A stretch of 64,000 bases of DNA, from positions 3,417,141 through 3,481,140 of the forward strand of contig RPFO01000165.1 of assembly GCA_009746045.1 (NCBI GenBank), written 5' to 3'. This DNA comes from Mesostigma viride. Taxonomy: Eukaryota; Streptophyta; Mesostigmatophyceae; Mesostigmatales; Mesostigmataceae. Made by a program: the position numbers and the translations under genes. Position 1 is the stretch's first letter. Each line of letters starts with the position of its first letter. The notes beneath the pieces were generated by a model. It made no database searches. It was not told the DNA's origin and saw nothing but the letters and a program-made list of their open reading frames with translations. Shown piece by piece: positions 16,371-38,965 of the stretch.

Positions 16371-18085
16371 CCCGTCCATGCTGCGACTGCACAGGCGCAG
16401 AGTGACACTTCTCCACCCACCGGTGCTGCGCCGGCTGGTGTGCCTAAGGCGGAGCGTGCAGGCGGCAGGGGCCAAGGGTGGTCCTACACCTGGCGCCAGG
16501 TATGGTCAGTCATCCTCATGACTGCGCTCCTCACCAGCTGTGTGTTCTCGGCGGCTCCGGCCTTTCAGTTCCTCGTGGCGAAGGCACAACGGCAGGTGGG
16601 AGAGCGAGGCATTACGCCGGGAGCGGCGGCATACATGCTGTTTCAGTCGGCGGCCGTGCGCGGTCCCACGGTGGCTGTGCACAATGTCTCGAGCGCAAGC
16701 GACCCGGCAGCAAACCATCAATGGAGCGTCTGTGAGCACCTCACAGCTGAGCAACGTGCGAGGCTGCTCAAGTGGCTGGAAGGTGCGCGCAACGCGTTTG
16801 CATTCAGCAGTCAAGAGCTGGGATGCTACAATGGTGGGCAGATGCGGGTCCCGCTGGACACCGATCAGCCACTGTTTCGCCGACAACACCGGCTGAGTCA
16901 AGCTGAGCTGGAGTTTGTGCAGCAACAATGCGAGGAGCTGGAGGCTGCTGGCATCATTCGGTCATCCACATCCAACTATGCGGCCGCGACCGTCGTGGCG
17001 CCCAAGAAGGATGCGGTGACAGGTGAATGGACTGGGATGCGCATGGCGACGGACCTGCGGCAACTCAACGCACACACCCCGATGGACAGGTACCCCATGC
17101 CGCGAGTGGACGATGTGCTTGACCGGATATCGCCACGCGTGCAGTTCATCTCATCCCTAGACCTCCGCAGTGGGTTTCACCAAATCCAAGTGGCGGAGGG
17201 TGACCAACGCAAGCTCGCGTTCTGGGGGGGCCACCGACTCTATGAGTGGGTCAGGATGCCTTTCGGGCATAGGAATGCGAGTGCCATCTTTCAGCGTGCC
17301 ATGGATCAAGTGTTGAATGGCATGCCATTCGCTGCGTGTTACATTGATGATGTGATCATCTTCAGTGAGACATTTGAGCAACACCTCCAGCACCTTGAGC
17401 AGGTGCGCATGGCACTGGCGCGAGCCAACCTAAAGCTGCATCCCGAGAAGTGTCGGTTTGCGCAGCGGAGCCTCGACTTCCTCGGACACCAGATCATTCC
17501 TGGCGGCAGAACTCCACAAGCGGCCAAGGTGGAAGCGATCGTCAACGCGGCAACGCCCACGGATGTGGCGGGTGTGCGGGCTTACCTGGGGCTGGCGGGG
17601 TATTACCGAGGTTATATCCCCAACTTCAGCACCAAGGTTAAGCCACTGACGGAGCTGTTGAAGAAAGGTGCAGTCTGGGCATGGGGTCCGGCGCAGCAAC
17701 GCGCCATTGAGACCATCAAGGCAGAGCTCACCTCAGCGCCAATACTCCGTCAGCCCGACTATGCCCAGCCATTTGTGCTATACACGGATTGGTCCAGGGT
17801 TGGACTTGGTGCTGTGTTGGCACAGAAGGACGTGCATGGCAAGGAACATGTGGTGGCGTATGCCAGCAGGAGCAACAACACGGCTGAGGCCAAGTACTCA
17901 TCGTATGAGGGCGAGGCTCTGGCCGTGGTGTGGGCCATCAAACATTTTCGGCCATACTTGTTCGGGCGTCAGTTCACGCTGGTCACCGACCATCAGCCAC
18001 TGCAGTGGTTGATGACAAGTGCCAATCTGACTGGCAAGCTGGCGCGCTGGGCCATGATTATTCAAGAATATAACATGACCATAGT
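16370..18085 (+). pseudogene. gypsy reverse transcriptase and RNase H, cut by insertion
   Basis: The frame is continuous with the methyltransferase C-terminus. RT runs from about 16860 to 17560: RYPMPRVDDVL, SSLDLRSGFHQI (first catalytic Asp), FGHRNASAIFQ, the CYIDDVIIF active site at about 17337-17363, and LDFLGHQI. RNase H follows (VLYTDWSRVGLGAVL, SSYEGEALAVVWAI, LVTDHQPLQWL). The frame reads QEYNMTIV at 18085 and is then broken by the tandem LTR array. The natural continuation (TIVHRAGVDHSNADVLSR) is found from about 21583. The catalytic residues are intact. Confidence 0.92.
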
Positions 18086-18523
18086 TGAGAATGACTTTGG
18101 AAGGGTTTGGTTGCAATGGCTGCGGCTCCTTGGCCGCTGTTTATTGCTTTAATTTATACATTTACAGCGTCAACCTTCTAGAGATGCCTAGAAACCTTGT
18201 CCTGCACTGTCGTTACAAGTATGGCAATGCAGTATGCGTTGTGCACATGGAACCTTCTAGACACCAGACGCCAAACTTAAGTCTGCCATGGTTATATCTT
18301 AACAACCCGTGGCAAGACTGCAACCATTGTGGCAACCATTTTGGCCACCGACATGAGTCGCGCCGGATTCATTGTCCGCATCCAGGTAATCAACATCACG
18401 TGCGGCAAACTGATATATTGCATAACAGAAAACCTGGACAGAATAATGCATACGTTTATTTCAATGTGTCGTTCCGACAGTATTTTTCCGAGCCCTGCCC
18501 AGCATCATTTGTAATGCTTTACA
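18086..18523 (-). repeat. LTR copy 1 (438 bp) of the tandem element
   Basis: This is the 3'-most LTR on the element strand. The preceding purine-rich tract (GAAAAAGAAAAG on minus, about 18533-18544) is a plausible polypurine tract, although about 9 nt separate it from the LTR. Confidence 0.8.
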
Positions 18524-18750
18524 ACTCCAGCACTTTTCTTTTTCATGTGGCAAAGATGGCCAGCGTACTCTTATCAGTCATTAACGGCCGCGCGGGCCAT
18601 GCCATCATGAATAGCAACTACAACACCGACATAGTCTCAGAGGGTAATGCCCACTGAACATTATTATACAATAGGTAATCACTCCCGGGGAAAACCTACC
18701 AAGGCTGAAAACCCGTGGCGCGGGGCCATTCATGGTTCAACGCAACTCAA

Positions 18751-19583
18751 CTAGTGCGAAGACTGACCCAGTGATAGCCTATTCATCAGAGGAAAATTCT
18801 TGTTGGCATTGCAGCTGTCACGGTTGTGGCCAGTGCCCTGGCACCTCGGGCACTTCTCGCGTCTGTCGCCCTCCCCAAAAACAGCACTGATGCTTGCTGT
18901 TCCCGCGGGCTTGGTGGCAGATCCCCTTCCCGCCAATTCCTGTGCCGCGCCACCGAGGGCGAAGGCCTCCCGGATGGCAGTAAAGCTGGCAGCCCTGCTT
19001 TCCAGCTTTTCCTTTGTCAGGACGGGAGCCAAGCCTTGGATACTGCTGTCAGTAATCACACCACTGGCGAGGGCCTTGCCCAGGAAAAGCACGACGCTGA
19101 AATCGTCTGGAAAAGTCAACGTAGTGTCTTCCAGCATCCTCTCGAATGCCAGTGTCGCCTGGACCGGGTCGCCCGACACCTCAAAAGTGAGGATCCGCAT
19201 CATATCTTTGATCGACTTGAGCAGGCCCTCGGGCACCAGGAGTTCCTTCAAACGGCTGTAAAAGTCCGCCCACTCCATCTTCTTCTCGTGGGCAATCCGG
19301 ATCAAATCACGGACGGCCGGCATTCCCGACGAGCCGTGTCCACTGAATCGCAACGTAGCAACGTGGTCGTTGTCCAGGAAACTCACTAGGTCTTCGCGTA
19401 CCAGTACCCCAGGCCGTCGTAGTAGTCCTTCTTTTCCGGGTCCTTGCTGCCGGGTGGCAGCGGCTTGGGCAGCAAACGCATTGCCAATTCGTGCTGCTTT
19501 AATTTGTTCATTTCCTTCTTGTCCTGTCCAGTCAGGACAATGGCGTCAGTCTCAGCGCTTGCTGCAGCACGGCTACGAGCCAT
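18751..19583 (-). pseudogene. Gag with zinc knuckle, unit 1 (one frameshift)
   Basis: The ATG at 19581-19583 (MARSRAAASAETD) lies about 30 bp after the LTR. The first 65 codons end at a TAG at 19386. One missing base there would join them to the following frame (SFLDNDHVATLRF...), which runs to 18751. The second part has a Gag-like helical region (DFYSRLKELLVPEGLL, ATLAFERMLEDTTL) and one CCHC knuckle (CPRCQGTGHNRDSC, near 18800-18845). No protease or pol follows. Because the same break occurs in both units, it was present before the tandem duplication. This makes it a TR-GAG-like non-autonomous element. Confidence 0.8.
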
Positions 19584-19612
19584 GGAAAAAATGTGTGATT
19601 AAGAGTACGAGT

Positions 19613-20050
19613 TGAGAATGACTTTGGAAGGGTTTGGTTGCAATGGCTGCGGCTCCTTGGCCGCTGTTTATTGCTTTAATTTATACATTTACAGCGTCAA
19701 CGTTCTAGAGATGCCTAGAAACCTTGTCCTGCACTGTCGTTACAAGTATGGCAATGCAGTATGCGTTGTGCACATGGAACCTTCTAGACACCAGACGCCA
19801 AACTTAAGTCTGCCATGGTTATATCTTAACAACCCGTGGCAAGACTGCAACCATTGTGGCAACCATTTTGGCCACCGACATGAGTCGCGCCGGATTCATT
19901 GTCCGCATCCAGGTAATCAACATCACGTGCGGCAAACTGATATATTGCATAACAGAAAACCTGGACAGAATAATGCATACGTTTATTTCAATGTGTCGTT
20001 CCGACAGTATTTTTCCGAGCCCTGCCCAGCATCATTTGTAATGCTTTACA
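19613..20050 (-). repeat. LTR copy 2 (shared middle LTR)
   Basis: Same length as copy 1. It serves both flanking gag units, the hallmark of LTR-LTR recombination. Confidence 0.8.
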
Positions 20051-20277
20051 ACTCCAGCACTTTTCTTTTTCATGTGGCAAAGATGGCCAGCGTACTCTTA
20101 TCAGTCATTAACGGCCGCGCGGGCCATGCCATCATGAATAGCAACTACAACACCGACATAGTCTCAGAGGGTAATGCCCACTGAACATTATTATACAATA
20201 GGTAATCACTCCCGGGGAAAACCTACCAAGGCTGAAAACCCGTGGCGCGGGGCCATTCATGGTTCAACGCAACTCAA

Positions 20278-21110
20278 CTAGTGCGAAGACTGACCCAGTG
20301 ATAGCCTATTCATCAGAGGAAAATTCTTGTTGGCATTGCAGCTGTCACGGTTGTGGCCAGTGCCCTGGCACCTCGGGCACTTCTCGCATCTGTCGCCCTC
20401 CCCAAAAACAGCACTGATGCTTGCTGTTCCCGCGGGCTTGGTGGCAGATCCCCTTCCCGCCAATTCCTGTGCCGCGCCACCGAGGGCGAAGGCCTCCCGG
20501 ATGGCAGTAAAGCTGGCAGCCCTGCTTTCCAGCTTTTCCTTTGTCAGGACGGGAGCCAAGCCTTGGATACTGCTGTCAGTAATCACACCACTGGCGAGGG
20601 CCTTGCCCAGGAAAAGCACGACGCTGAAATCGTCTGGAAAAGTCAACGTAGTGTCTTCCAGCATCCTCTCGAATGCCAGTGTCGCCTGGACCGGGTCGCC
20701 CGACACCTCAAAAGTGGGGATCCGCATCATATCTTTGATCGACTTGAGCAGGCCCTCGGGCACCAGGAGTTCCTTCAAACGGCTGTAAAAGTCCGCCCAC
20801 TCCATCTTCTTCTCGTGGGCAATCCGGATCAAATCACGGACGGCCGGCATTCCCGACGAGCCGTGTCCACTGAATCGCAACGTAGCAACGTGGTCGTTGT
20901 CCAGGAAACTCACTAGGTCTTCGCGTACCAGTACCCCAGGCCGTCGTAGTAGTCCTTCTTTTCCGGGTCCTTGCTGCCGGGTGGCAGCGGCTTGGGCAGC
21001 AAACGCATTGCCAATTCGTGCTGCTTTAATTTGTTCATTTCCTTCTTGTCCTGTCCAGTCAGGACAATGGCGTCAGTCTCAGCGCTTGCTGCAGCACGGC
21101 TACGAGCCAT
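20278..21110 (-). pseudogene. Gag with zinc knuckle, unit 2 (same frameshift)
   Basis: This is a near-identical copy of the unit-1 Gag at an offset of 1,527 bp, with the same TAG interruption at 20913. The noticed substitutions change Leu to Pro (near 20718) and Arg to Cys next to the knuckle (near 20387). No other coding content. Confidence 0.8.
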
Positions 21111-21139
21111 GGAAAAAATGTGTGATTAAGAGTACGAGT

Positions 21140-21579
21140 TGAGAATGACTTTGGAAGGGTTTGGTTGCAATGGCTGCGGCTCCTTGGCCGCTGTTTATTG
21201 CTTTAATTTATACATTTACAGCGTCAACGTTCTAGAGATGCCTAGAAACCTTGTCCTGCACTGTCGTTACAAGTATGGCAATGCAGTATGCGTTGTGCAC
21301 ATGGAACCTTCTAGACACCAGACGCCAAACTTAAGTCTGCCATGGTTATATCTTAACAACCCGTGGCAAGACTGCAACCATCGTGGCAACCATTTTGGCC
21401 ACCGACATGAGTCGCGCCGGATTCATTGTCCGCATCCAGGTAATCAACATCACGTGCGGCAAACTGATATATATTGCATAACAGAAAACCTGGACAGAAT
21501 AATGCATACGTTTATTTCAATGTGTCGTTCCGACAGTATTTTTCCGAGCCCTGCCCAGCATCATTTGTAATGCTTTACA
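21140..21579 (-). repeat. LTR copy 3 (5' LTR of the tandem element)
   Basis: Matches copies 1 and 2, with an extra TA near 21470 and one substitution near 21382. It ends GCTTTACA, and the gypsy coding sequence resumes a few bases later. Confidence 0.8.
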
Positions 21580-21582
21580 ACT

Positions 21583-23263
21583 ACCATTGTACACCGCGCT
21601 GGGGTGGACCATTCCAATGCCGATGTCTTATCACGCTATGCTTTGGCAACGTCAGAGGACCGGACGGGGGCGCGAGCGCAGGGCGCGGAGGGACCACAGG
21701 GCTCAGTCGTCTTTGTCAACGCAGCCGGGCCATGCGATTCCGAGTCGCGATGGCTTTCCTGCAGTGATGCCGTGGCGGAGTTTGCGTGCTACGCCAATCC
21801 CGTACGGCCAGCGGCTTTCACGCCATCTCAGGGCGTGATATTTCTTCCTTTGGCTGAAGACACGCTTGCGCAGCCGGTGGATCCGGCGAGCATGGGCTGT
21901 GTGGTGCTGCATGCTGCCGCCAGTCACGCCATTGCGGTGGAGTGCTGCGCTGGGACGTGTGGTTGGATGGGAGGGTTCTCGAGCGGGTGCAGGGTTTGCC
22001 TGCCTCTCCAGCCCCTGCTGACTGGACACCGACGCAGAGGCAAGCCGAGCAAGAGCGCGTGGAGCGCCGGGCTGTGAATTATACCTGGGAGGGCAACCAG
22101 GTCTACAAGCTTGTGGGGCGCCGCAAGCTGGTCGTGCCGCCCCCTGACAAGCGTGCTGCCCTCGTTGCCCATTACCATGAGCGGTTCGGGCACATGGGTG
22201 CAAACCGCACAGGTGCCATGGTGCGTGGGGTGTATTGGTGGGCGGGCATGAAGCATGCCATAGCACGGCAGGTAGCCAGTTGTGCCGAGTGTGCTCGCGC
22301 GAAAGCGCGTTTCAACCTGGACCATCATGACAAGGAGCTCATGAGCTTGCCCATCCGGGGCTTGTTCTACCGGTGGCACGTCGACTTGTGTGGGCCCTTT
22401 GAGCTCAGCACTTCCGGCAACCGTTACGTCATGGTGTGTGTGGAATCGTTCAGCAAGTGGCTGGAACTGATTCCCCTACCCGACAAACACGCCGCCACCA
22501 CAGCCACCTACTTCCTGGATGTTATCATGCTCGGTATGGGGCACCGGCGGAGGTGGTTTCAGACCAAGGCGGGGAATTTCGTGGGGAATTCCAAGAGCTA
22601 TTGGATTCCTGCTCAATCGATCATCGGCACACCTCGCGGGAGCACCCTCAGGCCAATGGACTGGCTGAGCGTTTGGTTCAGACAGTCAAACAGGCGCTGC
22701 GCAAATGGGCGTTGCAAGCAGCACGTGTGGCCACCTGGGATCGGGAACTACCCTGGATCGCCATGGGCTACCGGATGAGCCCACAAGAATCCCTCGCCCA
22801 GTTCTCCCCCTATTTTCTGCTCTTTTGTCGGGCACCATTGTTGCCCTCTGAGGTGCAGGAAGCTCACCCCCAGCCGATTCAATGGGATGACGCCAATGAG
22901 TGGCTGCGGGAGGTTGTGGCGCGCGCCGCCACATTTAAGAAGGTGATGCCCATCGCGATGAACAATCTGTTAATCGCGCAGCACCGCGACACACTGCGGT
23001 ACGCCCAGCGACGGGGTGGCAAGTATATGGCCAGGCGGCTGCAGTTCCACCCAGGCCAGTATGTGTTTCTGCGGACTCAACCCCAACACACGCTGGACGT
23101 CACGGCCGGGCCCACCATCCTTCGCATTGTGGAGATTAAGCCTTCGGGGGTGGCCATCCTCGAAGGTGCGGATGGTAGTAAGACCACTGACAATGTGTCG
23201 AACCTGTCTCCTTGCTCCATGCCCCACCTGGCACGGAGCATCCCGGCAGCCGCACACCGCTAG
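21583..23263 (+). pseudogene. gypsy integrase, three frames
   Basis: The end of RNase H is followed by the conserved link HRAGVDHSNADVLSR (about 21595-21640). An H2C2 zinc module follows (HYHERFGHMG ... CAECARAKARF, about 22171-22310). Then comes the rve catalytic core: WHVDLCGPFE (first Asp, about 22375-22405), SDQGGEFRGEF (second Asp, about 22560), and NGLAERLVQTVKQAL (Glu, about 22655-22700). A GPY/F-like tail (PGQYVFLRTQPQH ... DNVSNLSPC) ends at a TAG at 23261-23263. Frame changes fall near 21940 and 22540. All three catalytic acids are present. The protein would integrate the cDNA; as it stands it is broken. Confidence 0.9.
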
Positions 23264-23265
23264 GC

Positions 23266-23270
23266 GCATC
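23266..23270. repeat. target-site duplication GCATC, left copy
   Basis: GCATC directly precedes the left terminal inverted repeat. The matching copy is at 31634-31638, directly after the right one. Removing the element and one copy rejoins the gypsy integrase tail to the PHD finger. Confidence 0.85.
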
Positions 23271-23301
23271 CCTGCCAGCCGTTAAGAATGTACTCCAGCA
23301 C
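23271..23301 (+). repeat. left terminal inverted repeat of the 8.4-kb element
   Basis: 31 bp, with two mismatches to the reverse complement of 31603-31633. It is followed by the subterminal motif AAGTACATTTTG (23302-23313), which recurs at the right end (31590-31601). Confidence 0.85.
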
Positions 23302-23313
23302 AAGTACATTTTG

Positions 23314-23940
23314 AGTTTTTCCAAGTTTGTTGTTTTTTGCTTGTTTCAAGTTCAGTTTTGCATAAAAAGTGTCCCCATAGCCCCTGGATCTCATCTGGAG
23401 GTAGTTGAACTAGTATATGCTACAATATACTAGGTTGTACTATTTTCTACTACATTTATACTATAATGTACTAAATTGAACTACATCTGAACTAAATGTA
23501 ACTGTGATTGATGCCCCTGTAACGTCTCCCAATGCTCAATAACAGGTCTGGCCACCATTGGTGACCTCCTAGAGCCATTCACAGCTGCATTTCGTGGATC
23601 ACCGCACAAAAAAAAATGTTTTACTTAGCCTTATCAACATGGGAATGAGGGCTTTGGTGTGCAAACATGCATGTGTGCTAAAAATTGGACATTCTGACAC
23701 TGCGCGAGAGTCTGGTAATACTTAAGCACTTCAGGTCATGATCGAAGTATAGAATGAACTGATGCAAGCAATCAAGCATTATGCAAGGAATGGAATGCTG
23801 CAATGAATTTTAGCAGTAATACTTGCAACTAGGGAACACACGATAAAGTCACGAATCTGACATGCATTGTGCCGTCATGGCACATGCATGAACATGTACA
23901 CGAACAGAGGATCACGCGGACGCCCACGTGCACGCGCATG
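23314..23940. other. AT-rich subterminal region of the 8.4-kb element, no gene
   Basis: About 600 bp of AT-rich sequence with irregular repeats of CTACA/GAACTA/ATACTA type around 23405-23510. No ORF or family is recognised. Confidence 0.6.
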
Positions 23941-23954
23941 GCAATCCCCATGCC

Positions 23955-25278
23955 CCCCCCCCCCCCCACACACACAAGCCCCAACTCCAAACATTGCACC
24001 AATGACCCACCCACCCAAACCCAACCCCAGCCCCCCTGACCCCCAACGCCCATGCACACGCCCATGCCCCCGCCCCCGCCCCCGCCCCCGCCCCGCCCCC
24101 GCCCCGCCCCCGCCCCCGCCCCGCCCCCGCCCCGCCCCCGCCCCCGCCCCGCCCCCGCCCGCCCCCGCCCCGCCCCGCCCCCGCCCCGCCCCCGCCCCCG
24201 CCCCCGCCCACGCCCATGCCCATGCCCACGCCCACGCCCACACCCACGCCCACGCCCACGCCCACGCCCACGCCCACGCCCACGCCCACGCCCACGCCCA
24301 CGCCCACGCCCACGCCCACGCCCACGCCCACGCCCACGCCCACGCCCACGCCCACGCCCACGCCCACGCCCACGCCCACCCTAGCCTCACCCCTACTCCA
24401 AGCCACAATTATACCCAAAGCCACAGCCAGAAGTAGAGCGCAGCTGCAACAATAGCAGACGTAGCTGAGACACACACCTACCCACGCCAACGCCCACGCC
24501 CACGCTCACGCCCACGCCCACGCCCACGCCCACGCCCACGCCCACGCCCACGCCCACGCCCACGCCCACGCCCACGCCCACGCCCACGCCCACGCCCACG
24601 CCCACGCCCACGCCCACGCCCACGCCCACGCCCACGCCCACGCCCACGCCCACGCCCACGCCCACGCCCACTCCACGCCCACTCCCACGCCCACGCCCAC
24701 GCCCACGCGCACGCCACGCCCACGCCCACGCCCACGCCCACGCCCACGCCCACGCCCACGCCCACGCCCACGCCCACGCCCACGCCCACGCCCACGCCCA
24801 CGCCCACGCCCACGCCCACGCCCACGCCCACGCCCACGCCCACGCCCACGCCCACGCCCACGCCCACGCCCACGCCCACGCCCACGCCCACGCCCACGCC
24901 CACGCCCACGCCCACGCCCACGCCCACGCCCACGCCCACGCCCACGCCCACGCCCACGCCCACGCCCACGCCCACGCCCACGCCCACGCCCACGCCCACG
25001 CCCACGCCCACGCCCACGCCCACGCCCACGCCCACGCCCCCACGCCCACGCCCACGCCCACGCCCACGCCCACGCCCACGCCCACGCCCACGCCCACGCC
25101 CACGCCCACGCCCACGCCCACGCCCACGCCCACGCCCACGCCCACGCCCACGCCCACGCCCACGCCCACGCCCACACCCACGCCCACGCCCACGCCCACG
25201 CCCACGCCCACGCCCACGCCCGCGCCCATGCCCACGCTCACGCCCACGCCCACGCCCACGCCCGCGCCTGCGCCCACC
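23955..25278. repeat. C-rich hexamer arrays: CCCCGCC-type then (CCCACG)n in two blocks
   Basis: A CCCCCG/CCCCGCC tract (24061-24212) leads into (CCCACG)n at 24210-24380. A unique spacer follows (24381-24477), then (CCCACG)n from 24478 to about 25278 with rare variants. The minus strand is GGGCGT repeated over 100 times, a textbook G-quadruplex-prone pattern. Long frames of His-Ala, Ala-Trp, Val-Gly or Gly-Arg dipeptides in these arrays are artefacts of the hexamer period. Confidence 0.95.
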
Positions 25279-25385
25279 CTAGCCTCACCCCTACTCCAAG
25301 CCACAAATGCACCGTAAGCCACAGCCAGAAGTACAGCACAGCAGCGACAATTGCAGACTTAGCCCAGACACACACCTACCCACGT
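25279..25385 (+). repeat. second copy of the 100-bp array spacer
   Basis: This segment starts with ACCCTAGCCTCACCCCTACT and ends CACACACCTACCCACG. It is a diverged copy of 24379-24485. Array plus spacer therefore forms a higher-order repeat of about 0.9 kb. Confidence 0.85.
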
Positions 25386-25546
25386 CAATGCCCCTGCCCA
25401 GAGACTCGCGGCCTCATCCCACCCCCCTGCACGAACAGTTCCCAAACAAAAGAAAAGGCAAACAAAAGGAACAAGAGTAGCAAGCTGCATTGCGAGCACA
25501 TATGCCAGTTCTGGTGCACATGCCAGGCCGAAAGCAACTCATGATT

Positions 25547-25698
25547 GCCCCTGCCCCTGCCCCTGCCCCTACCCCTGCCCCTGCCCCTGCCCCTGCCCCT
25601 GCCCCTGCCCCTGCCCCTGCCCCTGCCCCTGCCCCTGCCCCTGCCCCTGCCCCTGCCCCTGCCCCTGCCCCTGCCCCTGCCCCTGCTCCTGCCCCTGC
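25547..25698. repeat. (CCCCTG)n array
   Basis: About 25 near-perfect hexamers. It is followed at 25739-25795 by an AT-rich (AATAAT/AAGAAG) microsatellite. Confidence 0.95.
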
Positions 25699-25795
25699 CA
25701 TCACCATTCTAACCACCACACATTACGAAAAGCAAGAAGAAATTATAATAATAATAAGAAGAAATTATAAGAAGAAGAAATAATAATAATAAACA

Positions 25796-26894
25796 AGCAC
25801 AAAGTTGACTGCACATGCGACTGTACCAGTAGGCACGTAGCAAATTTTAGCTGCAGCTTCAATTTCAACTTCATTGCAATTGCAAGTGTGACTGCATGTG
25901 TAATTGCACTACCAATGCCTAATGCCCACTGCATGTGCCCAGTGCGAATGCAATTCAAAAGCAACATGCAATCGAAATTACAGCTGAAGCCGGCTATTAA
26001 CAAAGATATTTAAAGCAGTTGTTAACTACAGAGACCCAATGAAAATGCAAATGCAATGAAAAAGCAACAGAAGTTGAAGCCACTGCCACTCTACCTGCCG
26101 ACAGTAACACCACCGCCAGCACCCACTCATATCCCAACGACAAGGAAATAGAATTGCCCAAAGCCAGACATACATTGGGACGCATAAGCAAACGGCAACG
26201 CAAGCGCACATGCAAATGTATACGCAAAGGCAAAGGCAAAGGCAAACGCAAACGCAAACGCAAACGCAAGCTTGTCATGTACCTACGCTTAACTGCAAAC
26301 GCAAACTGTGCACGAAGCAAAAAGATTGGATGGCCAAGATCATGGCAAATACGAGGGCCGAAAACAATCCAACTTCATCTAAATGTCCGAAATCCTCACG
26401 ACGTTTCGATGCGCGCTTGAATGTCGAAGGCCTGCGCCGATTATCGATCATAAGTCGAATGTGTAATTGTCGGCTTATGAGAACTGCTTTGCGACAGTAT
26501 CACGTCAGGCCGTTCCTGTGCAGCCATTTTCCCTGTGCAGCGGGTGGACAACGTTCACTTTCCGCATTATTCATGGCTATCGAAGTTAATTCTTACCGAC
26601 CCCGGCTGCCATGGCCACTGGCCACGCATATCAAGTTCAGGTATTCCCGACCTGTAGCGCAGCAGATTTCTGTTGGAAGGCATCCTAAGCATCGTGATAA
26701 AAGAAATCCGAACAATAGACATTCATGCTGCATCTAAGGACATTATGGCATTTGTATATACTGCAAGTACATGTATCGACATTGCCGTGATTGCTAACCC
26801 CGACTCACCATGAACAGGAACTTTCCCTCTGCCTCCATGAAATGTACTTCGTGAAATGTACTGTAATACATATGATGTACTACGATGATAATCA
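25796..26894. other. no gene recognised; degenerate short repeats
   Basis: This stretch holds (GCAAAC)-type hexamers at about 26225-26275 and scattered CAATGCAATT-like words. At 26837-26862 there is one outlying pair of AAATGTACTTCGT-like motifs related to those inside the adjacent palindrome. No protein family is recognised. Confidence 0.5.
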
Positions 26895-27509
26895 TCCCAG
26901 CAAAGCCATAGTACACCTTCCGTTTCGACCGCCATGTCGGCCACTAGTCCGGATAGCTCAATGTGCACCTGACCTTGACACTAATCGCACAAACAGCCAC
27001 AATTTTGCAAGCAAGAAGACATGGCTACCTCGGCATTTCATGAAATGTACTTCGTGAAATGCATTTCGTGAAATGTACTAAGGAACGTGATTGGCCGGCG
27101 TTCGCTCGCCAAATCTCGCAAAATGTACTAAGGCACGTGATTGGTCCCGCAAAATGTACTAAGGAACGTGATTGGCCGGCGAAGATTCTGTTTGCTGCAA
27201 TTAAAATTCCCTACAGAATCTTCGCCGGCCAATCACGTTCCTTAGTACATTTTGCGGGACCAATCACGTGCCTTAGTACATTTTGCGAGATTTGGCGAGC
27301 GAACGCCGGCCAATCACGTTCCTTAGTACATTTCACGAAATGCATTTCACGAAGTACATTTCATGAAATGCCGAGGTAGCCATGTCTTCTTGCTTGCAAA
27401 ATTGTGGCTGTTTGTGCGATTAGTGTCAAGGTCAGGTGCACATTGAGCTATCCGGACTAGTGGCCGACATGGCGGTCGAAACGGAAGGTGTGCTATGGCT
27501 TTGCTGGGA
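26895..27509. repeat. giant inverted repeat: 297-bp arms, 21-bp loop
   Basis: Left arm 26895-27191, loop 27192-27212, right arm 27213-27509, with position p pairing to 54404-p. At least one mismatch is seen (near 26912), otherwise the arms are essentially identical. Each arm contains three copies of a block reading AAATGTACTAAGG then A/C ACGTGATTGG (27071, 27121, 27152 and mirrors), that is, ACGTG cores next to reversed CCAAT boxes. The outer end of both arms encodes the same N-terminus (MHIELSGLVADMAVETEG), reading outward in both directions. Confidence 0.95.
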
Positions 27510-27985
27510 CATAATCGTGGCTATCTGCTTCCTGGCTTTCGCTATCATGGTGATGGGACACCATGGGAAGCGCAAGTTCGCAGCCATAGTGCTAAGCGGC
27601 AGCACCCATGCCGGCAGCCTAGTGACCGACGAGACGTTCGACTGTAAGTGCGGCCACGAGTGCATGAAGCCCATTAGAATATCACATCTCCAGGCATTGC
27701 GAAGCGCCTGGTTTTCGCCCGGGCGGAAGCAAGAGGACAGGAAGGCGGCGATAAAGCAGCAGCTGCACCAGGGGGGGTACGACGCCATAACCACGATGTC
27801 GTCATCTACTCGTCACAAGTTCGTTCATGGCGCTGGTTTTCGGTTCGTTCTCGACGGGGGAGTCAAGGATATGAACATAGGGTTTGTGACCCCTTTTCAC
27901 TTTCGCGTTTCACTTTCGAGGCGGCCTTCAGGCACTGCCTGAAAATTAGCAACCACGTTTGGAACTCTTCGGACCACCTGTGAAA
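27436..27985 (+). CDS. Cys-rich protein of unknown function, 5' end in the palindrome
   Basis: The ORF begins MHIELSGLV in the right arm of the inverted repeat. It then has a hydrophobic stretch (IIVAICFLAFAIMVMG) and a Cys-rich unit (CKCGHECMKPIRI, near 27649-27680), followed by a basic helical region. The frame stops at 27942, but in another frame AFRHCLKISNHVW follows (about 27922-27960), so a frameshift or short intron is likely. The pattern C-x-C-x3-C ... VC/AF...LGIS-W resembles the N-terminal region of a family of uncharacterised transposase-associated eukaryotic proteins. That comparison is from memory and weak. It may be the element's own DNA-binding or transposition protein. Confidence 0.4.
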
Positions 27986-28370
27986 CTAATCACATTTGAT
28001 GATGTGCTGGCGGGCCTGGGCATCGCATTTGAGCATTACTTCGAGCAGGGCTCAACAAGCTCGATTCGCCAACTCAACCCGAAGAAGCCCTAAGCTGCGG
28101 TAAGACATATATTTGTGTGGATGGCTCTTGATATCATGCTGAATTTCTAGTCTTCTCTAGGTGGACAGTTCATGTGCAGCCATACAGGTCATCCATGTGT
28201 GTTTTAACCATGTTGCATGTGCCACAGATATTATGAGCAGTATTTACTAAGTGTGCTGGAGTCGTTGTTGCATGCTTGTTGTATTTCACAGTTCACGCCT
28301 GCATGAACGCATCGTTGATACTAATGATTATTCATATTGCATGACTGTTCTATTGGGGACGCCGCGCTTG

Positions 28371-30128
28371 ATGTCACAACGTGGCCGAAAGGGTGCATCC
28401 ACCGCTGACGGCCGGTGGGTGAAATCGATGGACGCATTTCCGAAGAAGCCAGCCGCGGGCCACACCCATGGCGCGGGCGGGGGCGCGGGCGGGGGCGGGG
28501 GCGGGGGAGAAGGCGCGGGTGCGGGCGCGGGCGCCACCCAAGACGCGGGCGCGGGCGCGGGCCCGGGCGGGGCGGGGGCGGGGGCGCAGGCGCCGGCGCG
28601 GGTGCGGGCGCGGGCGCCACCCAAGGCGCGCGCGCGGGCGCGGGCGGGGGTGGGGGCGCAGGCGCCGGCGCGGGTGCGGGCGCGGGCGCCACCGCCGACT
28701 TGGATGATGAGCCAGCAACCGAAGCCGAGAGGGAGAGGCACCGCTCTTCGAAGGTGTTCGATCTCGAAGTGTTTTGGGGCCCGGATATGACCGTGTATGT
28801 CCGCTGGCGCCTAGCCGCATCGGAGACGTTGGTAAATGCACCGGTGAACAAGTGGCAGCCCACAGGGCCTAATGGCGAGGCTTGTGACGGGGTCACGCCC
28901 ATTGGGTACACCCCGCAGGGAGATCCTGTCTATGGGTGCCTCCTCATAGAGCGTGGCAAGGCCCCCAAAGGAAGTCCTGGTCTAGTGCCGCTTTTTGAAT
29001 GGGACGAGGGCGGTGCCAGGAGATGTACCTGCGCTAGCCTTCACAGCCTTTTTCCTGACATCGTCGCCGCTGAGAAGCAGCAGTTGCTGGACGGATGGAT
29101 TGAGCAGGTGCCAAAGTCCGTGGAGGATGTGCGTGCCAACAACGAGAATCTGTTCGACATCATGGAGCAAAAGCTCAAAGAGAAGCGTGAACTGCAAGCG
29201 AACAAGGCGGTACCCTTACCGCTGCGATCTGCAGGCGACCAGTCGGTTGCGCGGGCAACACGAGCACTGAGGCTGCCCATAAAACAAGTAATCTCACACG
29301 TCGCTTGCCCTGCCCGCGAGATTCAAGCGCAGATCAACCGCGCATGTGCGCCCGCTGCGCGAGGGAGCACATCAACGGCAACGCCCGCTTTGCGCACACT
29401 GATTTCCGGCAGGCACACCTTCAAGGTGAATGGAAGCCTCATACGACGCAGCGACCTACTCGTTGTTAAGCGGCCAGCCGTCACCTGCGGGCAGGGAATG
29501 CCGTGGGCACCACACATGCTGGTGAAGGTCCTTGATCTGGAAGGCGATCGCACGGAGCGTGACAGCATTGTCGCCTCTCCTTACTACGCACCGTCGTGGA
29601 CGGGCCAGTTTTCTAGAGTGACATTAGGTGGCGGCAGCGCAGGGATGACGGTCCCCATTTCTGATGTACACCTGCAGCACTGGACAGTGGGCGGTACGGC
29701 AGAGGTGCACCAGCCTGAGCTGATCAGTACCGGCAAACTGTCAGCTGCCACGGTGGCGGCGTTGAAAGAGCACCCGCAGATTGACTTTGAGCATTACAAG
29801 ACTGCCACCGCCGCCAGGGCAGCAGCAAAGGATGACTGCAATGCCTACTTTGCCGAGCATGGAGCACGTGCGCTTATCGGGATGCGCCTGTGTGCCCTGT
29901 TTCCGGGGATAGCGAGGAAGAGGGAGCGCTTCCATGGCTGGGTCACTAAGGTTCAGGAAAGGGGAGGTCACCTGCTCATCAAGGCGATGTGGGCTGATGG
30001 GCAGTGAGGACTATCATGCCCTGGCGGAGGTGACGCAGTTCGTGTGCGGCTGCCCACACCCAGTCGAGGCATTTGGCCGCGCTCGCTTCTTTCCACAGGA
30101 GCTAGGCTGGCACCGTGAACGCAGGTGA
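28371..30128 (+). CDS. Gly/Arg/Ala-rich protein with Tudor-like C-terminus, frameshifted
   Basis: A plausible start is the ATG at 28371 (MSQRGRKGASTADGRWVKSMD). The next 230 bp (28467-28690) are GGCGCG-type repeats, where the frame must change. The longest frame then runs from about 28690 to a TGA at 30005-30007. It contains no known catalytic domain, but the last part (ALIGMRLCALFPGIARKRER, FHGWVTKVQERGGHLLIKAMW) looks like a Tudor/Agenet-type barrel. Its expected DGS-ED continuation appears one frame over (to 30128), implying a second frameshift at about 30000. Such barrels often bind methylated lysine or arginine. It lies in the 8.4-kb element, so it may be a captured host gene. The function is not established. 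Confidence 0.45.
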
Positions 30129-30363
30129 TGGCACCCACATAGACGATGCCGTCCCTGCTGTGCACAGTGACAGTGAAGGCGGGGAGGAGGAGGAAGAGGG
30201 AGAGAAAGAGGGGGAGAAAGAGGGGGAGGAGGAGGAGGAGGGAGAGGGGAGGGAGAGGGGAGGGAGAGGGGAGGGAGAATGGGAGGGGGAGGGGGAGGAG
30301 GAAGAGGGAGAGGGAGAGGGAGAGGAGGATGCGGAATGGGAGCCGGGGATGACTGGTAGATGA
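30115..30363 (+). other. purine-rich (GAGGGA/GGAGGA) tract with acidic open frame
   Basis: Bases 30180-30345 are almost all purine on the plus strand, a candidate triplex-forming tract. One frame reads Glu/Gly repeats ending EEDAEWEPGMTGR. It could be an acidic tail of the upstream protein, but it is in another frame and may simply reflect the base composition. Confidence 0.4.
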
Positions 30364-30789
30364 GACGGTGCCATCTACCGGCGCATGGAATGAAGTGGTA
30401 GACAAGTTTACTCATGGTTGTCGGCAAGTAGAGCATGCACGCCTGGCCTAGCTGAATTTAAATCAATGAGTTGAGTTTGGAGAGGCTGCATTTTGCTTGG
30501 ATGAAGAATGTGTTAGCATGGCCAAACTTTTATGGCTTGTAGCCAAATCCTCTTGGGGTATGTGCACAGTGTACTAGCGGTGTTGTGCAATTGCGAGGAT
30601 TCCTGTCTTGTAGCGATGTGGCCTCTCACCCTGCAGCCTGGTAGATGTGTTGGCATGCAGCCACCCATCATTGGTCATCCGATCTGGTGTGATTTGCATT
30701 TGCACACCTTGTATTAAGGCCATGATATGATGATGTCTTGTTATTTTTAATGTGTATATGCGAAAAGAGGCATAATATGCTTGTATATA
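30364..30789. other. no gene seen
   Basis: AT-rich intergenic sequence inside the 8.4-kb element; no motif recognised. Confidence 0.5.
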
Positions 30790-31550
30790 GTGCTAGCAAA
30801 TGTCACTACCTTTACCTATGCCTGACCTTACAAGTTGAGGATGGTCTAATGTAGTGGCAAACAGGTTATTTACAACAATTCACAGTTTTCTGACATAGTT
30901 TGAGGCAACTATACTTACCAAAATGCTTGAAAAAGGCAAAAATTGCACCATTTATGCTAGCAAACGTCACTATTTTGAGATCAAACTGGGCCCAAACTTG
31001 GCCCATGGTCTAATCTAGTGGTGTTTAGGTTGCTTCCAACATTTCATAGCTTTCTGACATAGTTTGATATTGTTTAGTAGCTTACACTGAGCAAAATGCT
31101 TGAAAATGGCAAAAAATGCACCATTTATGCTAGCAAACGTCACTATTTTGACGTCAGACTGAGCCCAAACTTGGCCCATGGTCTAATCTAGTGGTGTTTA
31201 GGTTGCTTCCAATATTTCATAGCTTTATGACGTAGTTTGATATTGTTTAGTAGCTTACACTTAGCAAAATGCTTGAAAATGGCAAAAAATGCAGTATTTA
31301 TGCTAGCAAACGTCACTATTTTGAGTTCAGATTGACCCCAAACTTTGTGCATGGTCTATTCTAGTGGTAATTAGGTTGCATGCAAATATCCATGATGGTT
31401 TGACGTGATTTAGTACTGTTTCCTATTTATTACTATTTAATTTAACAAAAAATGACAAAAATGTACCTTTATTGCTAGCAAATGTCACCAAGATGACGTC
31501 CGATCGATACCAAACTTTGTACGAGGTCTATTTTGGTTGCAAACATCATG
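30790..31550. repeat. about 172-bp tandem repeats, 4-5 copies
   Basis: The word TGCTAGCAAA followed by C/T GTCAC recurs at 30791, 30955, 31128, 31301 and 31473 (spacings 164, 173, 173, 172). Flanking sequence is conserved too (CCAAACTTGGCCCATGGTCT, CATAGCTTTCTGACATAGTT). The outer copies are the most diverged. They lie next to the right TIR. Confidence 0.9.
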
Positions 31551-31602
31551 CATGACAATTTTCAGCATAAAAAGACAAACTTCGGTACGAAGTACATTTT
31601 GC

Positions 31603-31633
31603 GTGCTGGAGTACATTCTTAATGGCTGGTAGG
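31603..31633 (-). repeat. right terminal inverted repeat of the 8.4-kb element
   Basis: Inverted partner of 23271-23301; the TSD GCATC follows at 31634-31638. Confidence 0.85.
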
Positions 31634-31638
31634 GCATC

Positions 31639-31866
31639 CGCGATGCGCAGTGTCAAATTTGTCACCGGGTCGACCAGCCTGAGGTCATGTTGCTGTGTGA
31701 TCACTGCAACTGCGGCTGGCATCTTCACTGCCTTCAACCCCCTCTGTCTCAGGTACCTGAGGGTTCCTGGTTTTGCCCTGTGTGCATTGCTGCGGGGTTC
31801 ACCACCCATGCGATTCAAGCAGCTACTGCCACTTTGTTGCTCGCTACCCAGCAAAGGACTTGGTAG
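31639..31866 (+). pseudogene. PHD finger, C-terminus of the gypsy polyprotein
   Basis: The frame contains a complete C4-H-C3 PHD signature from Cys 31651 to Cys 31785: C-x2-C, 11 residues, C-x2-C, x4-H-x2-C, 14 residues, C-x2-C (including CDHCNCGWHLHC and WFCPVC). It ends with QQRTW and a TAG at 31864-31866. A polypurine tract follows at once. PHD fingers bind histone H3 tails, so the module could guide integration to chromatin. It was joined to the integrase before the 8.4-kb insertion; its frame is shifted by one relative to the integrase tail, so another indel must be assumed. Confidence 0.85.
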
Positions 31867-31884: not shown

Positions 31885-33269
31885 TGGGCAGCACTAGTGG
31901 GGTAAGGCTAGCATGTTGGCCCATCGATCACTCATGCAGCCATACCTCATGAGGGCCAACGAGGTCGTGGGCTACTGTCAGTGCAGGGAGTTTGGCACGA
32001 GTACGCGACAGCTGTCGCGCGCCGTTCCGATTCGCACGAGTATTGGCTTTACGCGGGGCCGCCACGCGGCCGGCCCGGGGGACGAGGCGAGGCAGCTAGG
32101 CATTGCGCGTGTGCGAGTTGTTACGCCTTTGGCATTTGGGCCTTACGGGAGCAACGCATGCGCCGTAGCGCGACGCGCAGCACGGGGAGTTGACAGCGGT
32201 ACTGACATGCGTCACCAGGAGGTCAGTGCCAACGCTGGCAAGCAGCACGCACTGGCTGCTGGACTACAACACGGACCAAGCTAGGCTGCCAGCCTGGCAA
32301 TTATGCGGATCGTGCAGGCTGAACATGCACGTGCACGCAAGCTGGCGCGTTATTGATTTCGAGAACTGTCCGCTGCAGGTAGATAATGTCGTGCAATATT
32401 GGCATTGATATTCGGCAGGCTGGCAAGCCGCTTTTGTGAATGCGACAAGGCAGCTTTTCTCGTCAGGGCCAGCTAGTTGTCGTACATGCTTGGTTGGTGA
32501 TATAGTTGTTTGGCAAGCTCAGGGGTCGGCAAGTCGACACTGGAGTGCTCTGCGACAAGGGCATTTTGTCGTCTGGGATTTCTGGCCTACCCAGGTTGTC
32601 TAGTTGATTTTGTCGTCTAAAGAGAAAGTGCTAGATGATATGTTTCATATGCGGAACAGGGAGTCGTTGCAGACAACGACTTAGGATTTTGTGTACTTTT
32701 AGGTCTTGGTGCTGACCAAAGCCGAGTGCCACGGAGTAGCTTTGGTGTAATTGAAGCAGTATGGACGACAAAGCGGTTGTCGTCAGGATCAGATACTGAG
32801 CGTGGCTACGAGGTAAGGCTGACGCAAGATATTGCGTAAGTGTAAGGCATTCATTGGGATAAGTGTGTGTTTCCACCAGGGCGTTGGATGTAGCTCTGTG
32901 TGGATCCTTGAACTCTGTCTTGGTCATGGTGGTGCGTGGCAAGTGTGGCCAGCCCTCCTTTCTTTCATCGAGCCCAGCCATTGCTGAAACAGAGCTGCCA
33001 AGTTAGGTAGAGTATTGGTAATAAAAACGTTATTTCATTTGCAACAAAGAACACAGTGTGAAGCCTAACCTAGCCATACCTCACTCTCAGGTCTCACCTT
33101 TTTGAGAAGTGCAGTTGGCACTGGCTTCTCGTCTTAGAAAAGTGGGCAGCACTAGTGGGGTAAGGCTAGCATGTTGGCCCATCGATCACTCATGCAGCCA
33201 TACCTCATGAGGGCCAACGAGGTCGTGGGCTACTGTCAGTGCAGGGAGTTTGGCACGAGTACGCGACAG
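31878..33269 (+). repeat. X-R-X: 134-bp direct repeats bracketing the right R copy
   Basis: Segment X (31878-32011) is repeated at 33136-33269, and between them lies R (32019-33136). Both X copies end with GCGACAG. The left R copy is also preceded by CGACAG but not by X. X begins inside the polypurine tract and contains the first 33 codons of the downstream 310-aa ORF. The right copy could be a 3' LTR of about 1.25 kb (X+R) followed by the start of a second one, but the borders lack a clean TG...CA. Confidence 0.6.
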
Positions 33270-35640: not shown

Positions 35641-35795
35641 TTAAAAAAAAATAAATTAAATTATAACATGCCTCCGTGGGGAGGTCATGTAGCACATATT
35701 CCATGATGGATGGGGTGGAGGAAGCCGCGTGATCGAACTATCCTAACTCTAAGCTATCTAGAAAATCGACTAACTACACTACTCATAAAAACGCA
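35641..35795 (-). mobile_element. LINE-B 3' fragment, inverted
   Basis: This is a reverse-complement copy of the 3' UTR and A-tail of the LINE at 36300-38954 (matching about 38800-38953), at roughly 95% identity by eye. The T-rich start here is the A-tail. It is a short 5'-truncated insertion that forms an inverted pair with the larger copy 3 kb away. Confidence 0.8.
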
Positions 35796-36288
35796 TGCAT
35801 AGTTGTCTCACTTAATCTCAAGGAGACAACCAGCGCAGGCCAGAATCGGGAGAATCCGGACCATGGTAGCTCGAGCCTGCCGTTATATCTTCACTTAATC
35901 TAGTCAATCGAATCCATCGGGGTTGATGAATTAAACTCGTGCACACAATCATACCGCGGCTTAACAAACAATTGCTCACACCACATTGGACCGCAATGCG
36001 TTGATCAAGAAATATCAAGGAGACAACCAGCGCATGCGCAGGCCAGAAATCGAGAGATGCGTTGATCAAGAAATATAATTGTCTCCTTGATAATTGTGTG
36101 ATTTGTGTCTAGTTATCTCAGTAAGTTAGACAAGTAATATCCTTGACTACTTCTGTGGAACTGAAAGTGGTCAACGAGCAAGAGGCTTTGAGGATGGATG
36201 AATAATGCGAACCTCATTATACCATGTTAGATTAGATCACAACAAACGTTCCAGCAATGGCAACCCATACGTCCTAATATCAACGTGC
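35796..36288. other. no gene; dispersed short repeats
   Basis: Contains two copies of a word starting TCAAGGAGACAACCAGCGCA (35818 and 36015), also present at 53203. A small hairpin (GTTGTCTC...GAGACAAC) lies at about 35802-35830. The source of the repeats is unknown. Confidence 0.5.
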
Positions 36289-36299
36289 ATGTCGAGCAT

Positions 36300-37100
36300 T
36301 GCTAGCAGATGACGACCATAGCTGCCGGGTAGAGGAGCTAGTCGCATTTTGCATAGAGCATCGTGTATCTATTCTAGGCGTCCAGGAACACCGTCGCCAG
36401 GTGCCATTTGGCACGGTGAGCACTAACCGCCTTGCAGGCGGTTGGCGTTTCTACTTCGCTGGAAGTGGGACGCCAGGCCAAGGTGGTGTTGGTCTTTTGT
36501 GTTCGCCGTTGGCAGTTGCTAGCCTCAGTACGCTTAAGTTCCTAACCCCACGCCTTATGGTAGCCCATTTCACCTCCGTCGAGGGGCGGTCTAAGCACCA
36601 CCTCACGGTGGGGGTGGGCTATGCACCCCATAGTGGTCTACCTGAGTCGGAGCGCCAAGAGTTCTTCGAGTCTTTGCATAACCTTGAGGGGGTCACTCCG
36701 GCCCGCCACTTTTTGGTTATGCTGCTCGACGCCAATGCTACGCTCCCCGTGGGCACTGCTGGCAGTCGCTTTGCGCCTGCTGACACGGAAGCTAACGCCA
36801 ACACTCCCCTTTTCTCTGCCTTTTTGCGGGATAGCGGGATGGTTGCTGTCAACTGCCAATTCCAACGTCCCTCACAGGACTTGGGTCACTTTTCGTGGCC
36901 CTAACGGCCGTCAGGCCTGTCTGGACTACGTGGTGGTACGGCAGCCCAGGTGCACCTCGGTTCTGGACGCCCGAATGTTTGACACGCCCACGGTGTGCTC
37001 TGACCGCTGGTTGGTGCGCGCGACCCTTCGGCTCCGGTTCCACGTCCCCGCGCGCCGCGCCGCACTGGTCCGCCCTGACTGGTCTGCTCTACGCCCGGTC
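36300..37100 (+). pseudogene. LINE-B apurinic-type endonuclease domain (frameshifted)
   Basis: An EEP/APE fold is indicated by VSILGVQEHRR, GYAPHSG, LVMLLDANA and GHFSWP (to 36904). A frame change near 36890 then leads to FRGPNGRQACLDYVVV and SDRWLV, the usual C-terminal D/S-D-H block with Arg in place of His. It would nick target DNA. The N-terminal edge of the domain coincides with the insertion boundary. Confidence 0.85.
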
Positions 37101-37771
37101 CGGGGAGATCCTGAGGACTGGACGGACGCCGAGCACGAGCGGAACCGGTGCCGCCAGGAGTCGGCCCTGGACGCCCGGGCGGACGTCGACGAGCTGGACA
37201 AGGGTGCCCCCAACGCCGCCATTTTTGCGGGCTTTGCGGCCCGTGGCCCGTTGCTGGCGGCCCGGCACCCGCCGGTCATGCCCCGCCGGCCGCCCCGGCC
37301 CGCTCTACCGCCAGGACCCCCAGGTCTTGGCCGCCGGGCACCGCCTCAAGCGTAACCGGGACCCGCTGCAGAAACCATTGCTCAAGGCCGCCCTTGTGGA
37401 GGCCTACGAGCACGCTCAGGACGCGGAGGCGGCCCAGTGCATCGCGGATGCCAAGGCCTGCCAGGCTCGCAACCAGGGCAAGGACATGTGATACCACCTC
37501 GACCGGCTCGGCGGCCGGCGGCAGCGCACCCCGGTGGAGCACACGGGGGACGGCACGGCGCCGGTCAGCCTTGACCGCTGGTTGGCCCACAATGTTTCCT
37601 TGACCAGTGGGGCTCGCGCCCCCCCCCGCCGCTTCACCCCGAGACGGCCGCCCGCCTCGGGGTCGCCGGACCCCCGCCGCCGCCAGCGCCCCCCTCCTCG
37701 GCCGCGGACTACCAAGTCCCCGCCTTGCAGGAGGGCTGCCTTGCCACTGACGACGTCGTCCCCCCTTCACT

Positions 37772-38400
37772 TTGAAGGAATTGGACGGCGCCCTTGCTCG
37801 CCTGCGGTACGATGCGGCGGTCGGTGCCGACCACCTTTCTGCTGAGCTGCTGAAGACCCCTGATCTGGCGGTTAGGGATCTTCTGCTGGCGTTCTGCAAC
37901 CGTGTCCTGCTCTCTGACGAGCCTCCGCCTGCTGAGTGGCAGACGGCCATCCGCTTCATGCTGTACAAGAAGGGCTCTGCTGCTGACCCGGGCAACTACC
38001 GGGGTGTCTGCCTCCAGAGCGCCGCGCTGAAGGTCTTCATGCGCATGATGCTGAACAGGCTCCGCGCCGCGCTGGACCCACACCTGGGTGAGTCTCAGAT
38101 GGGTTTCCGTCGTGATCGTAACACTGTCATGGCTGTGTTTGTCGCGCGCCGGTTGATGGAGGAGGTGCGTCGACTTCCCCCTGACAGTTTGCCGCTGGTC
38201 TTCATTTTTGTTGACTATAAGCTCCGTTCGCTCACACCCTACTGGCGCTCGAAGGGCCTGAGCGGGCACCGCAAGCGCATGCTCTTCAAGGTCCTCGTCC
38301 TCACGGTGCTCACGTATGGCGCCGAGGCGTGGACCCTCCCACCCAAACTGGCAGCTAGGCTAGACGGCACGGTTTACAGGATGCTCCGACAGGTCCCGTA
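37772..38400 (+). pseudogene. LINE-B reverse transcriptase with palm deleted
   Basis: RT fingers are present: AVGADHLSAELLK, EWQTAIRFMLYKKG, NYRGVCLQSAALKVF, SQMGFRRDRNT, LVFIFVDYK. The frame then jumps straight to the C-terminal LTPYWRSKGLSGHRKRMLFK and VLTYGAEAWTL. The segment that should contain the catalytic YADD box is missing, so the copy cannot reverse-transcribe. The frame stops at 38399-38401, and further degenerate coding (GHLARTSQVDT) follows in other frames. Confidence 0.85.
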
Positions 38401-38965
38401 GTTTTTTCCGAGCGTCCGTCATCAGAGTCTTTGTATCATGGCATGCCTCGTGTTTCGGACGAGATTAGGCAGCGTAGGAAAGCATTTGTAGGACACCTTG
38501 CTCGCACCAGCCAGGTCGACACCACCCTCGGTCTGGCCGGCCGGCCCAGCGGCTTGGCCAGCCAGGGCGGCACATTCTAACCTGGCCTGGCCCCGAGGAC
38601 ATTCCCAAAAGGGTAGGAAAACCTGTCACGAACTACGTTCAGATGTTGCTGGACGACCTAGTGGTACCAGCCCAGTTTGAGCACCGCATCCACTCTCTCT
38701 CCCGTCTTTGGACTGCCATGCAGGACAAGACGCGGTGGAAGAAGATTGTCAAGGCGCACACGCCCGACCCTGTGGGCAAGCCACCTCCCCCCAAGCGGCG
38801 GAGGCGTTTTGATGAGTAGTGTAGTTGGGATTTTCTAGATAGCCTAGAGTTAGGATAGTTCGATCACGCGGCTTCCTCCACCCCATCCATCATGGAATAT
38901 GTGCTACATGACCTCCCCACGGAGGCATGTTATAATTTAATTTTTTTTTTTTTAATGTCGAGCAT

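Follow-up and report, generated by a model that had tools for sequence, protein, structure and literature searches.

A 64,000-nucleotide stretch of the genome of the alga Mesostigma viride (assembly GCA_009746045.1, contig RPFO01000165.1, positions 3,417,141 to 3,481,140; hereafter the window) carries a large mobile element with two main open reading frames, ORF1 and ORF2. We propose that this element probably represents a recently amplified family of large DNA transposons with terminal inverted repeats (TIRs), which moves by cut-and-paste with a 3-bp staggered cut and no obvious target motif. An earlier note, made from the letters of the window, had suggested a mobile TIR element at this place, and inverted ends, repeated copies and empty sites are all present. 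Together with the target-site duplication (TSD), these are the features by which a cut-and-paste TIR transposon (class II, subclass 1) is recognized. Coordinates of the features are collected in Table 1.

Ends, target-site duplications and empty sites

The ends of the element were set by comparison of copies. Twenty of the 39 other loci matched by the left 200 bp were retrieved, and both ends were present in 15 of them, which together with the window copy give 16 full copies. The loci without both ends are L012 (gap), L014 (which exits the element inside its palindrome), L020 (insert), L021 (altered right end and many indels) and L026 (contig end). By this comparison the real ends lie one base further out on each side than the earlier limits, 23271..31633. 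The inverted ends, previously given as 31 bp, exist with 29/31 identity, and the full TIR, with the extra base on each side, is 32 bp (30/32). The termini read CCCT...AGGG in the 16 full copies, except in L028, the right end of which is altered. Exact 16-bp inverted pairs spaced 1–15 kb apart number 3139 in the window, most of them in low-complexity arrays, compared with 0 to 3 across 20 dinucleotide-shuffled versions of it. After filtering for complexity, the matches listed include the TIR pair of the element and, at 35641-38955, a 154-bp inverted repeat. The arms of the latter (window 35641-35794 and 38804-38955) are 96% alike and span 3.3 kb in all; they may belong to a further TIR element or to a fold-back.

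The TSD is 3 bp long. An exact 3-bp duplication flanks 14 of the 16 full copies, that of the window included, and eight of nine further pairs taken from short end pieces (two of 20 pieces were unpaired and set aside); that is, 22 of 25 end pairs have it. L009 and L010 have identical flanks, so that the count becomes 21 of 24 independent sites. The duplicated sequences vary, and no common motif was seen by eye. A 5-bp duplication, GCATC, had been read from the window copy, but among the 16 full copies it fits that copy alone. The other copies show 3 bp, and the outer C and G are TIR bases; the apparent GCATC arose because the TIR-terminal C and G and the adjoining bases coincided in the window copy. 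Since 3-bp TSDs are known in several DNA transposon superfamilies, the TSD is no argument for a new one.

The element sits inside a gypsy element, and uninterrupted gypsy paralogues represent the empty site. When the flanks were joined with one CAT (216 nt), 38 of the best 40 of 316 candidates gave full or near-full alignments, the identity of the joined flanks to the empty-site candidates being 94–98%. Of the remaining two, one is the left flank of the window itself; the other, a copy on C335, continues across the junction and is broken about 20 bp past it. In the three alignments inspected (L051-L053) the junction is identical, and the sole difference, a 4-bp gap, lies elsewhere. The statement that removal of the element restores the gypsy stands as regards the paralogues, which match the joined DNA, but the joined flanks of the window copy give no single open frame over the insertion site.

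Some further features of the host gypsy may be recorded here. Its integrase core (window 21858-23263 and 31660-31800) is split between two frames, and a Cys/His stretch resembling a PHD finger was seen by eye past the insertion site, in another frame. Direct repeats of 1124 bp, with three differences, flank the gypsy (window 10477-11600 and 32013-33136). They have no clear TSD, and about 150 bp preceding the second copy recur after it; their status as the long terminal repeats (LTRs) of the gypsy is unsure, and they were not used for dating. Within the gypsy, a segment of about 1.97 kb is repeated directly, with a period of 1.5 kb and 99.7% identity (window 18083-20053 and 19610-21582).

Number, size and age of the copies

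Further copies with the same ends, the search for which had been put forward as the test of the earlier reading, are abundant. The genome contains 192 exact copies of the 46-nt left end. When three or fewer mismatches are allowed, the TIR pattern finds 479 genomic sites (235 and 244), whereas a control pattern finds none. With the left 200 bp as query, the best 40 of 282 candidates are all shown as 100% identical. One hundred TIR sites (zero mismatch, first contigs) were then paired by a simple rule, as follows: a left-type end was matched with a right-type end at a distance below 40 kb. Eighty sites fall into 40 convergent pairs and 20 are unpaired, and no neighbouring convergent like-type pairs within 40 kb are left among the latter. 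The span is 7.6–8.9 kb in 36 of the 40 pairs.

The family is young. The 15 other full copies diverge from the window copy by 0.12–0.98% over the approximately 5.9 kb to the right of the arrays, and full copies measure 8175–8604 bp, the differences in length lying chiefly in the hexamer arrays. Older siblings occur at four sites with a hybrid TIR. One of these, L062, is 91% alike over 568 bp, after which an assembly gap follows; at a second, L063, 1 kb at the expected place of ORF1 has no match to the element.

Three individual loci display side features. At L014 (G000:C533) the left part of the element stops inside the palindrome, at position 3909 of L014, and is followed by sequence unlike the element, a possible breakage at the palindrome. 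At L020 (G000:C335) an insert of about 1.7 kb, bounded by ACTCGTCGTCTGTCCC.. and ..GGGACAGACGACGAGT, is nested at the equivalent of window position 23725; judged by eye, it likely has a TTA duplication and is Harbinger-like by this TSD. At G000:C1216:91111 a left end of the family and a Transposase_21 match (C1216:90121-90654) are 457 bp apart, perhaps through nested insertion.

Open reading frames, palindrome and arrays

ORF1 is the Cys-rich ORF of the earlier note, and a CxCx3C cluster is indeed present in it. By eye, the frames adjoining ORF1 resemble parts of a longer, interrupted gene. Across the 16 copies, the segment 27380-28150 has two variable sites and no indel; thus, the frame breaks of ORF1 are common to all copies. 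ORF2 is open from the first ATG to the end in L015, L017 and L025 only. A nonsense change at 29285 is common to L016, L019, L023 and L028, which occupy different sites. As this subfamily multiplied with its common stop, a full ORF2 in cis is dispensable. In the window copy, ORF2 has a frame change in a G-rich tract, and two bases near 30004, present in 11 of the 16 copies, are absent.

The sole database match of ORF2 is the M. viride protein P0001 (eukprot jgi/Mesvir1, 7 members), with 99% identity over 64% of the query. The P0001 reading has the two bases near 30004, which indicates that it comes from another copy. P0001 as query matched itself alone; in the ORF2 and P0001 searches, the best 7978 and 7995 candidates by common words, respectively, were scored. 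ORF1 found nothing in the protein collection at E values up to 10 (193 candidates, limited by length), and up to E 5 it matched no Pfam family. Four ORFs were scanned (ORF1, ORF2, 26108-26734 and 30009-30128), and none of them passed a Pfam cut-off. Below the cut-offs, ORF2 gave DUF1242 at 0.042 and Sporozoite_P67 at 0.52, ORF 26108-26734 gave Fer4_23 at 0.047 and TFIIA at 0.6, and ORF 30009-30128 had no match up to E 5. Viral contigs contained no relative of P0001 or ORF1, a PDB sequence search returned nothing convincing, and two single-sequence AlphaFold models were unusable (mean pLDDT 35.3 and 36.8). To summarize, the profile search of the four ORFs agrees with the original impression that no transposase is recognizable. 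The description of ORF2 as 'Tudor-like' finds no support in Pfam profiles, and the idea of captured genes is not borne out, as ORF2 matches a Mesostigma protein alone and neither ORF1 nor ORF2 passes a Pfam cut-off.

The giant palindrome reported from the window is found in all 16 full copies, with an arm identity of 295–297 of 297 bp. In the window the arms agree at 296 of 297 positions by direct comparison, where the repeat search had printed 100%. The right arm holds the start of ORF1, so that this start recurs, inverted, in the left arm. Arm-to-arm gene conversion was considered and rejected: no mirrored changes were seen, and the two variable positions are each one-sided. Of 16 occurrences of the short motif AATGTACT in the window, 15 are inside the element, compared with a mean of 0.14 and a maximum of 2 in 300 shuffles of the non-repetitive parts. 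Besides the central cluster, three occurrences lie on the left at 23287-23465, within about 200 bp of the end, and two on the right, at 31591 and 31610. The quadruplex arrays that had been noted correspond to two C-rich hexamer arrays, and most C-strand quadruplex-type motifs of the window start inside the element (47 of 52; for the G-strand, 5 of 10).

Table 1. Features of the element and its flanks, in window positions
Feature	Position	Strand	Remarks
Left TSD copy	23267..23269		3 bp, CAT
Whole element	23270..31634		8365 bp; + is the strand of ORF1 and ORF2; ends set against 15 other full copies
Left TIR	23270..23301	+	32 bp, CCCTGCC...; 30/32 match with right TIR
C-rich hexamer array ACGCCC	24046..25277		207 copies; alignments with other copies break up here
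C-rich hexamer array TGCCCC	25546..25699		26 copies
Central AATGTACT cluster	26841..27360		10 of the 15 occurrences in the element; within and next to the palindrome
Near-perfect palindrome	26895..27509		2 x 297 bp, 21-nt loop; arms 26895-27191 and 27213-27509
ORF1	27472..27939	+	156 aa; CxCx3C cluster
ORF2	28371..30128	+	586 aa from first ATG in three of 16 copies
Tandem repeat	30841..31379		173 bp, about 3 copies; near right end
Right TIR	31603..31634	-	32 bp, CCCTACC... on minus strand
Right TSD copy	31635..31637		3 bp, CAT

Source of the transposase and place among the superfamilies

Transposase_21 (CACTA) genes are numerous in the genome (best 150 of 239 candidates scored, many with equal scores), and three groups were sampled for a partner of the element. 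Of the element ends in the sampled groups, that on the right of L056/L057 alone was resolved. The stretches L054-L056 contain none of the element's TIRs, and AATGTACT occurs once in two of them and not in the third. L057, a second copy, is 98.8% identical to L056, and CACTAGGAACTC is the right end of both. When ORF1 and ORF2 were compared with the frames of L054-L061 and L063 by phmmer and blastp, the best E value was 0.31 (phmmer). A partner among the three groups examined was rejected, neither TIR nor protein being held in common with the element. Among the Transposase_21 groups with equal scores (e.g., L054-L058) some have tens of members, and two pairs that were compared are 98.6–98.8% alike, which suggests other recent bursts of DNA transposons.

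The TIR pairs of unusual length were candidates for an autonomous copy, and these were likewise rejected. The extra length of the 10.3-kb pair (L020) is the insert of about 1.7 kb described above. By eye, EN/RT-like ORFs were seen in 8 kb sampled from the 15.6-kb pair (L029), and gag- and integrase-like ORFs in 7 kb sampled from the 16-kb pair (L050). The 30.7-kb pair was covered by three samples totalling about 8.5 kb: L059 and L060 have retroelement-like ORFs, again by eye, and L061 has low-complexity ORFs only.

Among known superfamilies, the element works most like CACTA/EnSpm. It is large, and its TSD lacks an obvious motif and falls within the 2–3 bp of that superfamily. Short repeated motifs near the ends are a CACTA/EnSpm feature, to which AATGTACT corresponds here. 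CACTA/EnSpm termini are given as 5′-CAC..GTG in PMC12730594, whereas those of the element are CCCT..AGGG. The element is not filed under CACTA/EnSpm because these defining CAC ends were looked for and other ends were found. Further differences are that the four ORFs have no match to Transposase_21 (PF02992), although a partner in trans may exist, and that the element's proteins are unmatched in the Mesostigma CACTA stretches sampled. PIF/Harbinger elements share the 3-bp TSD and duplicate a TWA target, a preference that the element lacks, and the ORFs scanned have no match to a Harbinger transposase. Transib elements have 5-bp TSDs, and Kyakuja-Dileera-Zisupton (KDZ) elements have Cys-cluster domains, to which the CxCx3C of ORF1 may be likened. 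PMC12730594 gives 5 bp for the TSD of hAT5 and 7–8 bp for KDZ. With its 3-bp TSD the element differs from all three, and hAT5 and Transib would fit the earlier 5-bp reading only. The KDZ transposase domain (PF18758) has no match in the four ORFs scanned.

How, then, is the element moved? It is possible, if rather doubtful, that it is a non-autonomous CACTA/EnSpm derivative with altered ends, mobilized by a Transposase_21 family of this genome. The TSD without an obvious motif, the repeated motif near the ends and the abundance of Transposase_21 genes would suit this origin. The CCCT..AGGG ends do not, nor do the sampled CACTA stretches: L054-L056 lack the element's TIRs and have at most one AATGTACT each, the L056/L057 family ends differently on the right, and no protein of L054-L061 or L063 matches ORF1 or ORF2. 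We regard it as unlikely that the 8.4-kb unit is autonomous, ORF1 (spliced) and/or ORF2 being a transposase of a new or unmodelled lineage beyond the reach of Pfam. Consistent with autonomy, the 16 full copies align throughout both ORFs, most TIR pairs have the same size, no ORF scanned passes a Pfam cut-off, and ORF1 has a CxCx3C-type cluster, which we take to be typical of some transposase N-termini. However, ORF2 is fully open in few copies and has a common stop in four that still multiplied, the ORF1 frame is broken identically in all 16, no catalytic triad was recognized, and both structure models failed.

A new eukaryotic superfamily, with a 3-bp TSD, CCCT..AGGG ends, a transposase in ORF1/ORF2 and the palindrome as a regulatory or replication element over its own gene start, seems to us quite improbable. 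The earlier note had offered a new superfamily or a large non-autonomous carrier of captured genes. What stands of this is a TIR family without a recognizable transposase, which we leave unassigned to a superfamily; the TSD argument is gone, and gene capture is not borne out. A PIF/Harbinger-like element is very unlikely: the TSD length fits, but TWA is seen in two of 22 TSDs, both from one locus present twice (L009/L010), and the four ORFs scanned show no match to a transposase of this kind, a genome-wide search for that family not having been run. As to an assembly artefact or a chance inverted repeat, misassembly is a known risk with large palindromes and hexamer arrays, but the same ends and palindrome recur in 16 full copies, which occupy 15 separate sites (L009 and L010 share one) and mostly have their own TSD, and empty sites are present. 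We give this explanation practically no weight.

We thus favour a recently amplified cut-and-paste family, against which several points must be weighed. No transposase was recognized in the four ORFs, so the cut-and-paste step is inferred from its products. L022, L028 (with its altered right end) and L039/L040 on C20 lack a 3-bp TSD. A purely non-autonomous family would not usually have such uniform length, with no short deletion derivatives among the 40 TIR pairs. Partial sampling of the four long pairs yielded inserts or retroelement-like ORFs and no fuller version of the element, and, with 100 of the 479 TIR sites listed, the survey may have passed over a rare autonomous copy. For a family of this kind, the transposase may act in trans from a rarer relative, or it may come from a fuller version of ORF1. 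It would bind the 32-bp TIRs and the nearby AATGTACT motifs, and the AATGTACT motifs in the palindrome over the ORF1 start could let it control ORF1.

The literature searched on Mesostigma and transposons, and on 5-bp TSDs in green algae, contained no description of the family; passages of the Mesostigma genome paper (PMC6947507) dwell on LTR elements. Should all 192 exact left ends belong to full copies, the family would amount to about 1.6 Mb and show that DNA transposons were active very recently in an early-branching streptophyte alga. With near-identical copies and a known empty site, the transposase, the role of the palindrome and the role of the C-rich arrays are directly testable.

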